A stretch of 44,861 bases of DNA from Candidatus Rokuibacteriota bacterium (GTDB lineage: Bacteria; Methylomirabilota; Methylomirabilia; Rokubacteriales; CSP1-6), in NCBI GenBank assembly GCA_003221635.1, contig QHSR01000257.1, positions 1 through 44,861 of the forward strand, read 5' to 3'. The notes under the pieces are model-generated. The model made no database searches and had not been told where the DNA came from. It saw only the letters and a list, made by a program, of their open reading frames with translations. The stretch's first letter is position 1. Every line of letters starts with the position of its first letter. Position numbers and translations under genes: made by a program. Below, in pieces: positions 28,814 through 39,167 of this stretch.

Positions 28814-28963
28814 ACGCGGTCAGGGCGGGGCAGGGTGGCGGTGCCCCCAGCTCGACCCGTGTAGTCAGCGGTGCATCGCCTCAGACTGAGGGGTTCCATC
28901 GCAACCGGTCGCAGCAGTCGGGTCGCGCTGGGGGCACCGCCACCCTGCCCGCCCTGACCGCGT
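28814..28963. repeat. Long-stem palindrome, copy 2 (44/45-bp arms, 59-nt loop)
   Basis: Left arm 28814-28858 and right arm 28920-28963 pair over their full length with one mismatch and one single-base bulge; 28859/28919 adds one more pair. The loop 28860-28918 is exactly 59 nt, beginning TGTAGTCAGCGGTG and ending TCGCAGCAGT, matching copy 1 at 23282-23436. Stem blocks GGG.AGGG, GGTGCC, AGC and CCG are shared with copy 1, while other pairs are changed on both sides. The outer base of the right arm is the last base of the TGA stop of the MBL gene (28963-28965), so the element forms the immediate 3' end of that gene. Confidence 0.92.
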
Positions 28964-30000
28964 CACCAGCGACGCGTTTCGCCGTGCTTGAGGATCCAGA
29001 TGCGGTCGAGGTCGAGCCGCAGGCGGCGCGCCTCGGCGGCGAGTCGCTGCGGCGGCTCCTCGAGCGGTTCCTCGGCGAGATCGAACGTCCCCCAGTGGAT
29101 CGGGACCAAGCGCTGCCCGCGGACGTCGGCGAAGGCTCGGAGCGCCTCCTCGGGCGTCGTGTGGCTGGCCTGCATGATGGACGCGGGCACGTAGGCGCCG
29201 ATCGGCACCGCCGCGAGGTCGAACGGGCCCAGCCGCGCTCCGATCTCCTTGAACCCGCCGAAGTAGGCCGTGTCCCCTGCGAAGTAAAGACGCTTGGCCC
29301 GGCCCGCGACGACCCAGCCGCTCCAGAGGCGACGGTTCCGATCCCAGAGGGTGCGGCCGGAGAAGTGGTGGGCCGGGACGCAGGTGAAGGTCAGCCCGCT
29401 CAGCTCGCGTTTGTCCCACCAGTCGAGCTCGTCGACGTCGGTGATGCCGATGTCGGCGAACCATTGTTTGAGCCCGAGCGGGACGAAGAACCGGGTGCGG
29501 TGCTCGGCGGCGAGCTGCTTGACCGTCGCCTCGTTCAGGTGATCGTAGTGGTCATGCGAGATCACGACCGCGTGGATCGGAGGTAGATCCTCGAACTTGA
29601 TTCCGGGGGCCGACACCCGACGCGGCCCCCCAAACGATACCGGGCTCGCTCTGTTCGACCACTGGGGGTCGGTCAGAATGTTGACGCCATCCAGCTGGAT
29701 CAGCAGGGTCGCATGACCGACCCAGGTCACGGTCACGGCACCGCGATTGTCATGGATCGTCCCGAGGTCGCTCGCCACCTGGGGAAATTTCGCGGTTCGC
29801 GGCATGAAGGTGCTGGCCCAGATGCGCGAGACGAAGAACGTGAACCGAGTCCAGGCGCCGGCGGTCATGTGCGACGGATTCACGTTCGCGAACCCGCGCT
29901 CGCGGTGATGAGCCGGGGCGCCCGGCACCGGGCCTCCGACGCCGGCGCAGCCGGTCACCAGGATGGCCAGCAGGAGCGCGGGGGCCCGCCAGGACGTCAG
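28963..30000 (-). CDS. MBL-fold hydrolase, NAPE-PLD/UlaG-like, predicted lipoprotein
   Basis: A metallo-beta-lactamase-fold protein of about 345 residues. Metal site: SHDHYDHLNE (HxHxDH type), a histidine in PAHHFSGRTLWDRN, the aspartate in YFAGDTAYFGG and a late histidine in VPIHWGTFDL. TWVGHATLLIQLDGVNILTD is the typical N-terminal strand of the NAPE-hydrolysing phospholipase D/UlaG branch, suggesting a phosphodiester substrate. The N-terminus SWRAPALLLAILVTGCAG is a lipoprotein signal. The start is not a standard codon: the HK stop reads CTGA, and CTG 29998-30000 gives the signal; no ATG, GTG or TTG precedes it closely. It is the last gene of the long minus-strand block. Confidence 0.85.
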   Translation of the reverse strand: MTSWRAPALLLAILVTGCAGVGGPVPGAPAHHRERGFANVNPSHMTAGAWTRFTFFVSRIWASTFMPRTAKFPQVASDLGTIHDNRGAVTVTWVGHATLLIQLDGVNILTDPQWSNRASPVSFGGPRRVSAPGIKFEDLPPIHAVVISHDHYDHLNEATVKQLAAEHRTRFFVPLGLKQWFADIGITDVDELDWWDKRELSGLTFTCVPAHHFSGRTLWDRNRRLWSGWVVAGRAKRLYFAGDTAYFGGFKEIGARLGPFDLAAVPIGAYVPASIMQASHTTPEEALRAFADVRGQRLVPIHWGTFDLAEEPLEEPPQRLAAEARRLRLDLDRIWILKHGETRRW

Positions 30001-34720: not shown

Positions 34721-35215
34721 TCAGGCCTCGGGGGGGAGGCCGACGCTCTCGCGGACGACGCGCGCCACGATCGCCGCGGAGTACCCGCGACGCAGGAGAT
34801 GGTCGCGCAGCCGCGCGGCGGCCCGCGCGCGGTCCGCCCGCCGGAGCGCCGGCAGGCGCCGGCGGGCGACGGCGCGCGCCCGCTCGACCTCGTCGTCGCC
34901 GCCCGCGGCGAGCGCCGCGTCGACCAGCGGCGTGGCCACGCCCCGCGCCCGCAGCTCCGCACGCAGGCGCGCGGGGCCGTAGCCGCGCGTCGAGCGGGTG
35001 GCGACCCAGTGGTGGGCGAAGGCGGCGTCGTCGAGATAGCCCCGGGCGATGAGGTCGGCGACGACCTCGGCGGCGACCGGGGCCGGCGCGCCGCGCCGGC
35101 ACAGGCGCGCCGACAGCTCGCGCGTGGTCCAGGCGCGCCGGGAGAGGAGATCGGCGGCGACGAGCCGCGCGGCCCGCGCGTCGAGAGCTCGGCGCGGCCC
35201 GCGCGTCCCCGTTAC
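34721..35215 (-). CDS. recX: Regulatory protein RecX, start codon appears as GTA
   Basis: The minus frame from 35215 to TGA 34721-34723 encodes 164 residues with three-helix RecX repeats: RLVAADLLSRRAWTTRELSA, ARGYLDDAAFAHHWVATRST, RGYGPARLRAELRARGVATP and LRDHLLRRGYSAAIVARVV. RecX binds RecA filaments and limits their growth, and its place in the recA-alaS block fits. No ATG, GTG or TTG exists ahead of the domain; a conventional call would only find the 72-residue end from GTG 34939. The natural start is GTA 35213-35215, overlapping the TAA stop of pilT as GTAA. A single G-to-A change in an ancestral GTGA would explain this. Confidence 0.85.
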   Translation of the reverse strand, partial: VTGTRGPRRALDARAARLVAADLLSRRAWTTRELSARLCRRGAPAPVAAEVVADLIARGYLDDAAFAHHWVATRSTRGYGPARLRAELRARGVATPLVDAALAAGGDDEVERARAVARRRLPALRRADRARAAARLRDHLLRRGYSAAIVARVVRESVGLPPEA

Positions 35216-36372
35216 GATCTCTTGAAGAAGGAGCTACCGGTGGGAGAGAGGGGGCCCCGCTCCTCCCGCCTCTGCTCGAACGACTGCTCGCCCGTCGAGA
35301 AGATACCCCGGACCTTGAGGTCGAAGTCGTCGGCGTTGGTCGCCGCTTCCCGCGCGGTCTCGTACGAAATGATGCCCTCACGATAGAGCTTCAGCAGGCA
35401 CTGGTCGAAGGTCTGCATGCCGTACTGCGATTGGCCCTGGGCGATGAACGCGGCGATCTCCGGCGTCCGCTTGGGCTCCCGGATGCAGTCCTTGATGGCG
35501 CCGGTGCCGACGAGCACTTCCACGGCCGGAATACGCCCCTCGCCGCCGATCTTCGGGATGAGCCGCTGGGAGATGACGCCGACGATGACGGCGGCCAGCT
35601 GGTCACGGATCTGCTGCTCCTGATGCGGCGGGAAGGTGCCGATGATCCGGTTGACGGTCTCGCTGGAGTTCAGCGTGTGGAGCGTCGAGAAGACCAGGTG
35701 GCCCGTCTCCGCGGCGTGGAGCGCGACCGACATCGTCTCCGGATCGCGCATTTCGCCCACGAGGATCACGTCCGGGTCCTCGCGCAGGGCCGCGCGCAGC
35801 GCAGTGGCGAAGCTCGACGAGTCATGGCCGATCTCGCGCTGGCTGACCACGCAGCCGATGTCGTCGTGGGTGAACTCGATCGGATCCTCGATCGTGATGA
35901 TGTGATCGTTCCGCGTGCGATTGATGTAGTCGATCATCGCCGCGAGCGTCGTCGACTTGCCCGAGCCCGTGATGCCGGTGACCAGGATCAGGCCGCGGCG
36001 CTCCATGGAGAGCTGCTCCAGCACCTCCGGTAGCCCGAGCTCCTCGAACTTCGGCTTCTTCGACGGGATCGAGCGCAAGACCGCCCGCACGGCGCCGAGC
36101 GCCAGGAACATGTTGACGCGGAACCGCCCGAAGTTCGGCACGGCGTACGCCGAGTCGACCTCCCGGCCGTCCTTGAGTTGGGTGTACATGCGCTCGGTGA
36201 GACACCGGCGGGCGATCGCGTCCATGTCCTCGGCGGTGATCACGCCGAGATCTCCCTGGGGCACCAGGCGCCCGTGAATCCGGAGCACCACCGGCGAGTT
36301 CGCCTTCAGGTGGAGGTCCGAGGCGCCGCGCTCGACGCCGGTGACCAGGAGTTTGTCGAATTCCATCGCCAT
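35212..36372 (-). CDS. pilT: Type IV pilus retraction ATPase PilT
   Basis: A 386-residue hexameric ATPase of the secretion-ATPase family that powers pilus retraction at the inner membrane. Seen: KLLVTGVERGASDLHLKANS at the N-terminus, Walker A GITGSGKST (residues 133-141), the Asp box IITIEDPIEFTHDD, the Walker B region ALREDPDVILVGEMRDPET, the His box AETGHLVFSTLHTLNSSETV, and the C-terminal VLVGTGAIKDCIREPKRTPE with its IRE element. No other pilus gene is in the window. It is inserted between recA (10 bases upstream) and recX (overlapping), an uncommon place for pilT. Its TAA stop overlaps the recX frame. Confidence 0.95.
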   Translation of the reverse strand: MAMEFDKLLVTGVERGASDLHLKANSPVVLRIHGRLVPQGDLGVITAEDMDAIARRCLTERMYTQLKDGREVDSAYAVPNFGRFRVNMFLALGAVRAVLRSIPSKKPKFEELGLPEVLEQLSMERRGLILVTGITGSGKSTTLAAMIDYINRTRNDHIITIEDPIEFTHDDIGCVVSQREIGHDSSSFATALRAALREDPDVILVGEMRDPETMSVALHAAETGHLVFSTLHTLNSSETVNRIIGTFPPHQEQQIRDQLAAVIVGVISQRLIPKIGGEGRIPAVEVLVGTGAIKDCIREPKRTPEIAAFIAQGQSQYGMQTFDQCLLKLYREGIISYETAREAATNADDFDLKVRGIFSTGEQSFEQRREERGPLSPTGSSFFKRS

Positions 36373-36381
36373 GAGGGGCTC

Positions 36382-38466
<2,085 letters not shown>

Positions 38467-38579: not shown

Positions 38580-39167
38580 TCAGACACCGCGGCCGACATC
38601 GCCGCGGAGGCTCACGGTGGCCAATTCGGTGTATCGGGCACCCCGTGCTAACAGCTCGCTACGCATGAGCGAGACGCCCGCGACGTGGAGCCGGCCGAAC
38701 TCCTGCGCCGCGGCGCTCCAGAGATCCTGGGTGAGCGCCGGGTTGCGCCCGGGTTGACGTACCCGGCCGAGCGTGATGTGCGGGGAGAAGGGGCGCTCGT
38801 CGCGGGCGAAGCCGAGCGCCGCGAGGGCCCCGTCCACGCGGACGGCGAGGTCGACCATCGCGCCCGCGCCCCCTGTCACCCCGGCCCACACGACCCGCGG
38901 ACGCGTCGCCGACGGGAAGGCGCCGAGCCCGGCGAAATTGGCGTCAAACGGGCTCACGTCGGCGGCCGTCCCGGTGAGCGCGCCGACGATGGAGCCGATC
39001 CGGCCATCGGCGACCGCACCGAGGAACTTCACCGTGAGGTGAAGATTCCCGGGAACGACCCAGGCGACGTCGCGCCCCACGGGTCGCAGCCGCTCGATCG
39101 CCGTCCCGAGCTCGCTTCGGATGGCGTCGTCGAGCAGGATCGCGACGAACGCTCGGATATCGCTTAT
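38580..39167 (-). CDS. thpR: RNA 2',3'-cyclic phosphodiesterase (2'-5' RNA ligase family), start reads ATA
   Basis: A 195-residue member of the 2H phosphoesterase family. The two catalytic HxT motifs are visible as NLHLTVKFLG and PHITLGRVRQ; RAFVAILLDDAIRSELGTAI is the typical N-terminus. The enzyme opens 2',3'-cyclic phosphates on RNA. There is no ATG, GTG or TTG ahead of the first strand. The best start by homology is ATA 39165-39167, giving (M)SDIRAFVAI; it overlaps the TAA stop of the upstream gene as ATAA. An ancestral ATGA overlap altered by one G-to-A change is the simplest reading. thpR between cinA and recA is a gene order I recall from several phyla. Confidence 0.85.
   Translation of the reverse strand: MSDIRAFVAILLDDAIRSELGTAIERLRPVGRDVAWVVPGNLHLTVKFLGAVADGRIGSIVGALTGTAADVSPFDANFAGLGAFPSATRPRVVWAGVTGGAGAMVDLAVRVDGALAALGFARDERPFSPHITLGRVRQPGRNPALTQDLWSAAAQEFGRLHVAGVSLMRSELLARGARYTELATVSLRGDVGRGV

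Follow-up and report, generated by a model that had tools for sequence, protein, structure and literature searches.

How a complete recX gene is translated when no ATG, GTG or TTG codon precedes its conserved domain is the question raised by the window analyzed here, a stretch of 44,861 nucleotides (contig QHSR01000257.1) from a Candidatus Rokuibacteriota genome of 5.17 Mb in 335 contigs, whose relatives are labelled Candidatus Rokubacteria, a group of soil bacteria. On the minus strand of the window the genes follow each other in the order recA, pilT, recX and alaS. The initial annotation had taken as natural start of recX a GTA codon overlapping the pilT stop. The elements of the locus are the following:

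36382 to 38466, minus strand: recA, which contains an intein and opens an apparent recA-pilT-recX run (open reading frame and comparison with relatives)
35212 to 36372, minus strand: pilT, an open reading frame with an ATG and a T2SSE domain (PF00437), whose stop overlaps the proposed recX start
35234 to 35236, minus strand: TAG in the recX frame, 5' of the gene, which rules out, for this frame, any start on its 5' side
35216 to 35218, minus strand: ATC, the proposed recX start codon (32 genomes from 13 genera have ATC, ATA or ATT here)
35212 to 35215, minus strand: GTAA, read directly from the sequence as the pilT stop TAA plus GTA, the second recX codon if ATC is the start
34721 to 35218, minus strand: coding sequence of recX, 165 aa if translated from the proposed AUC (Pfam domains and codon-position differences)

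The protein encoded in this frame is complete. In particular, the three tandem three-helix domains of RecX (PF21982, PF02631 and PF21981) all score above the Pfam cut-offs, and the protein counts 154 residues from the conserved Leu-Asp. The frame reads CGG TAG CTC CTT CTT CAA GAG ATC GTA ACG GGG ACG, with the TAG five codons upstream of the start region, while pilT ends in TCG TAA; GTA occupies positions 35215 to 35213, the pilT stop TAA positions 35214 to 35212, and 34721 is the last position of the recX stop. No ATG, GTG or TTG occurs in the window's recX frame between the TAG and the RecX domain, and the first canonical in-frame start lies 82 codons past the Leu-Asp, about half-way through the protein, which is too late to make RecX. 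The initial annotation is therefore confirmed by the Pfam domains, the in-frame TAG and the reading frame as regards a complete RecX lacking a canonical start, and its coordinates for the GTAA overlap and for the end of recX hold as well. Furthermore, the differences among recX sequences within genus g1 amount to 0.11, 0.10 and 0.31 at the first, second and third codon positions, respectively, so that the frame is under purifying selection. That RecX binds and restrains RecA is taken by us from its family membership, while the genomic link between recX and recA is observed. The intein of the window's recA is inserted after the residues KIGVMFG and ends in VVHN.

A search for RecX was positive in 97 of 148 genomes, and the junction with the upstream gene was read in 52 genomes. 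An AUH codon (AUC, AUA or AUU) stands beside the upstream stop in 32 of these 52, all of them Rokubacteria and distributed over 13 genera (ATC in 25, ATA in 6 and ATT in 1), and most of the 32 have no canonical start before the RecX domain. In a single genome of 70% GC, a short stretch devoid of canonical starts would be unremarkable; what is remarkable is that this is conserved over 13 genera together with an AUH codon. The gene preceding recX in these genomes is either pilT or recA, depending on the genome; pilT lies between recA and recX in many relatives, not in all.

Where pilT precedes recX, the junctions of genus g1 mostly read CAA GAG ATC, followed by a codon that overlaps the pilT stop and is GTA, CTG or CTA. 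Genera g4 and g14 present ATC GTA with a TAG stop, genus g23 presents ATC CTG or ATC CTA, and in genera g5 and g12 an ATA overlaps the TAA or TAG. Genus g6 has a longer RecX N terminus, with an ATA located 27 codons before the Leu-Asp that nevertheless overlaps the pilT stop; it follows that the recX start tracks the upstream stop and not the domain. The AUH codon is also there where recA lies directly upstream of recX and no overlap with pilT exists (genera g2, g16 and g18 and genome G017): the codons read TAG CCC ATC GCC in g2, GCC ATC CGA or GCC ATT CGA in g16, and GTC ATC GTA or GAA ATC GTA in g18. Several of these recA-adjacent genes carry an in-frame stop a few codons 5' of the AUH codon, which is consequently the only one left as a start.

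Genera g3, g7, g9, g15, g19 and g21, as well as order-level relatives, present a GTG, ATG or TTG near the same stop instead. On the RecX tree, 29 AUH members fall into one group together with three canonical members (G015, G037 and G048), and the three AUH members of g23 are placed elsewhere. The distinction between AUH and canonical starts requires 4 changes on this tree, compared to 16.3 for shuffled labels, which indicates that the AUH state at recX is old and has been maintained. Some genomes depart from the general pattern: in G004 the main position is occupied by ACA, with ATC following two codons later; G002 contains a pair of ATAs; in G009 a GTG immediately ahead of the Leu-Asp could serve as a start; and G027 has neither an AUH nor a canonical codon.

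A second gene of the window, thpR, shows a similar junction:

38580 to 39167, minus strand: thpR (LigT/2'-5' RNA ligase family), from a proposed AUA start, 195 aa (PF02834, PF13563)
39165 to 39167, minus strand: ATA, the proposed thpR start, overlapping the TAA of a TPR gene as ATAA (rarity of ATA and its conservation)

ATA makes up 0.04% of the coding codons, and in the start column of 28 family members it occurs 22 times, alongside GTG in 4, ATG in 1 and ATC in 1; in the other subclade, as well as in other families, thpR has ATG or GTG. An exchange of ATA with ordinary starts at one column is the behavior expected of a start codon, and thpR is in this respect a stronger and sharper case than recX. 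No further AUA-start family stood out among the gene calls. The initial annotation had attributed an ATAA at thpR to the same event as at recX: the ATAA is indeed present, at positions 39167 to 39164 of the minus strand, and it is the mutational event that falls away, with ATA itself being the conserved start codon.

The event proposed there was a recent G-to-A change, by which a true GTG start within GTGA would have become GTA and the stop TGA would have become TAA; a sequencing or assembly error, or recurrent edits, would give the same result. GTAA is one base away from GTGA. However, comparison of the orthologous pilT/recX junctions contradicts such an origin, as ATC is conserved and GTA is not, the same arrangement recurs in many separately assembled species, and no relative of the AUH clade has a GTG at the overlap position or reads GTGA there; ATA is likewise kept at thpR in 22 of 28 relatives. 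Errors or edits are thus excluded for practical purposes, and a point mutation has a negligible probability in our judgment. We would also give almost no credit to the view that recX is a decaying gene: the lack of a canonical start would be in line with decay, but the domains are complete, the length is conserved, internal stops are absent and the substitutions are biased toward the third position. A programmed frameshift at the end of pilT, producing a PilT-RecX fusion in which recX would need no start, is only slightly more credible and still very improbable. The recX frame is open far upstream in several relatives; against this, the recA-adjacent relatives have in-frame stops and still the AUH codon, the window offers just nine codons between the in-frame TAG and the pilT stop, and inspection of CTTCTTCAAGAG revealed no convincing slippery heptamer.

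It is less easy to distinguish between two neighboring codons as the start. GTA lies exactly at the position of a 4-base overlap, where the overlapping members have GTA, CTG, CTA or ATA, and it might be accepted because the terminating ribosome is already parked there. We consider this improbable, since the codon overlapping the pilT stop varies (GTA, CTG, CTA and others), whereas ATC almost always precedes it, and the AUH codon persists where there is no pilT overlap (GCC ATC CGA, CCC ATC GCC); moreover, GTA is not known to act as an initiator codon. In the overlaps, the A of ATC falls at a third position of pilT, and A represents only 3.6% of the third-position bases in these genomes. A conserved PilT C terminus could be a partial source of the conservation of ATC, and within genus g1 the choice between ATC and the following GTA, CTG or CTA rests on the comparison among relatives. 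On these grounds, the start of recX in the window is most likely ATC at positions 35218 to 35216, one codon before GTA. The codon that the initial annotation had named does not stand.

Taken together, we consider it likely that in this lineage of Rokubacteria recX is translated from AUC, or from AUA or AUU in some members, by reinitiation at the preceding stop, and that the weak AUH start results in a low level of RecX. Ribosomes that finish pilT, or recA where it is adjacent, would remain on the mRNA and would restart at the neighboring AUH codon with the initiator tRNA, so that RecX would begin with fMet, without the need for a Shine-Dalgarno sequence. Initiation there would be inefficient, AUH being the type of start against which IF3 discriminates, and RecX would be made in small proportion to the product of the upstream gene and at a low level relative to RecA. 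In this way, coupling an inefficient start to the end of recA or pilT would produce, at the level of translation, a RecX:RecA ratio similar to the one found in E. coli.

The sequence context agrees with this scheme. Anti-Shine-Dalgarno pairing upstream of recX has a mean energy of -2.0 kcal/mol, compared to -4.9 kcal/mol for genes with a single ATG and -3.5 kcal/mol for random coding positions; by this measure the recX AUH codons show no Shine-Dalgarno match and pair even more weakly than random coding positions. Relative to the first base of the upstream stop, the position of the AUH codon ranges from 4 nt on the 5' side to about 21 nt on the 3' side. The lack of a Shine-Dalgarno sequence and the position on or near a stop fit termination-reinitiation. 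As regards the machinery, an altered initiator tRNA was set aside as a cause in view of the standard anticodon arm, GGG-CTCATAA-CCC, of genome G000; a search for the identical arm was negative in some relatives. An altered IF3 was also set aside, as the aligned IF3 sequences of the AUH and canonical clades present no obvious difference. As neither the initiator-tRNA arm nor IF3 appears unusual in this clade, no change in the machinery is needed.

Genes around recX, called with a dicodon model, were compared as 76 ortholog groups. In 6 of these, most members are without a canonical start: recX, thpR, a gene with a metallo-beta-lactamase fold, glnE, a secreted-protein gene and pgpA. The third of these also lies in the window:

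28963 to 30000, minus strand: metallo-beta-lactamase-fold gene (PF12706), with a proposed CUG start in a CTGA over the TGA of a histidine kinase gene

This start is CTG in most relatives and GTG at the same place in three. The suggestion of the initial annotation that translation can resume at overlaps of this kind in the absence of a regular start codon is thus supported by the 32 genomes with AUH at recX, by thpR and by a third gene. Outside the window, glnE has an apparent CTG start overlapping the upstream TGA in genus g1 and in G011 (L090 to L091; G004:C29, about 19.7 to 23.0 kb), and the secreted-protein gene has an apparent ATC start in four genomes (L108; G002:C9, about 51.0 to 52.7 kb). 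For pgpA, which follows rimO in the window (41163 to about 41633, minus strand), neither ATG, GTG or TTG nor an AUH codon was present near the onset in eight genomes; the onset reads GCG CCT AGC at the rimO stop, and G031, L069 and L076 have a GTG at or near the position of GCG.

Genes without a canonical start numbered 43 of 597 grouped genes, compared to 4 of 268 in an outgroup pair of 69% GC and 0 of 97 in relatives from the class with about 58% GC, these counts being non-independent as they include orthologs. A strict test by ortholog group gave 4 of 135, compared to 1 of 134 in the control, and did not clearly separate the two; a looser test gave matches in both sets, those of the control mostly having an ATG slightly further in. 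These comparisons suggest a general relaxation of start choice across the clade. It is possible to hypothesize, although we hold it doubtful, that reinitiation in Rokubacteria is broadly permissive, with AUC, AUA, CUG and perhaps other codons accepted after termination, that several percent of operon genes are missed or truncated as a result, and that recX and thpR belong, along with other genes, to one set responding to IF3.

Low yields and discrimination by IF3 are characteristic of AUH starts (PMC9410913), whose output in Staphylococcus aureus was measured at about 10 to 30% of that of AUG (PMC13009471). Conserved AUH starts have been described for infC and pcnB in Escherichia coli (AUU) and for infC in S. 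aureus (AUA) (PMC9410913, PMC13009471), and the likeness to recX concerns the start codon only. In that type the start reduces initiation and IF3 discriminates against it, whereas for recX we infer the effect of IF3; the known infC sites have a Shine-Dalgarno sequence, extended in S. aureus, whereas the recX start lacks one and is located at the upstream stop. The infC gene of Rokubacteria (L177 to L206, L227 to L239 and L246) also uses AUC, as does recX: it mostly has ATC and in a few cases ATA or CTG, behind a Shine-Dalgarno-like GGAG. Gene-specific, conserved non-canonical starts like that of recX have also been identified by initiation profiling in S. aureus, namely the AUU/AUA starts of cvfC1 and ccpN (PMC13009471), which are different genes from another phylum with extended Shine-Dalgarno sequences, while recX here is tightly coupled to its neighbor. 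Termination-reinitiation at ATGA and TGATG overlaps, where, as here, the second start lies on or right next to the stop of the first gene, is established for ordinary start codons (PMC6728339), whereas the junctions of Rokubacteria have AUC, AUA or CUG. In mycobacteria, recX has the same orientation as the gene before it and overlaps it, as in our case, but that gene is recA itself and the overlap measures 32 to 35 bp (PMC3062782); in Rokubacteria, pilT usually lies between the two and the start is AUH. In E. coli, RecX inhibits RecA and is far less abundant, the transcription of recX being held below that of recA (PMC6662834). In Rokubacteria, it is probably the weak start that keeps RecX scarce, and the recX case appears to extend the known class of starts represented by infC and pcnB.

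Very few bacterial genes are known to have a conserved AUH start. In the present case, recX, the gene for a RecA regulator, and thpR each appear to have one throughout an entire clade, both at stop-start junctions. Gene finders apparently see no recX start because the gene begins at AUC or AUA, and gene callers limited to ATG, GTG and TTG miss or truncate real genes in Rokubacteria. Moreover, the recX start points to a simple means of keeping neighboring proteins at a low ratio, and it suggests a link between the level of initiation factors and the control of recombination.
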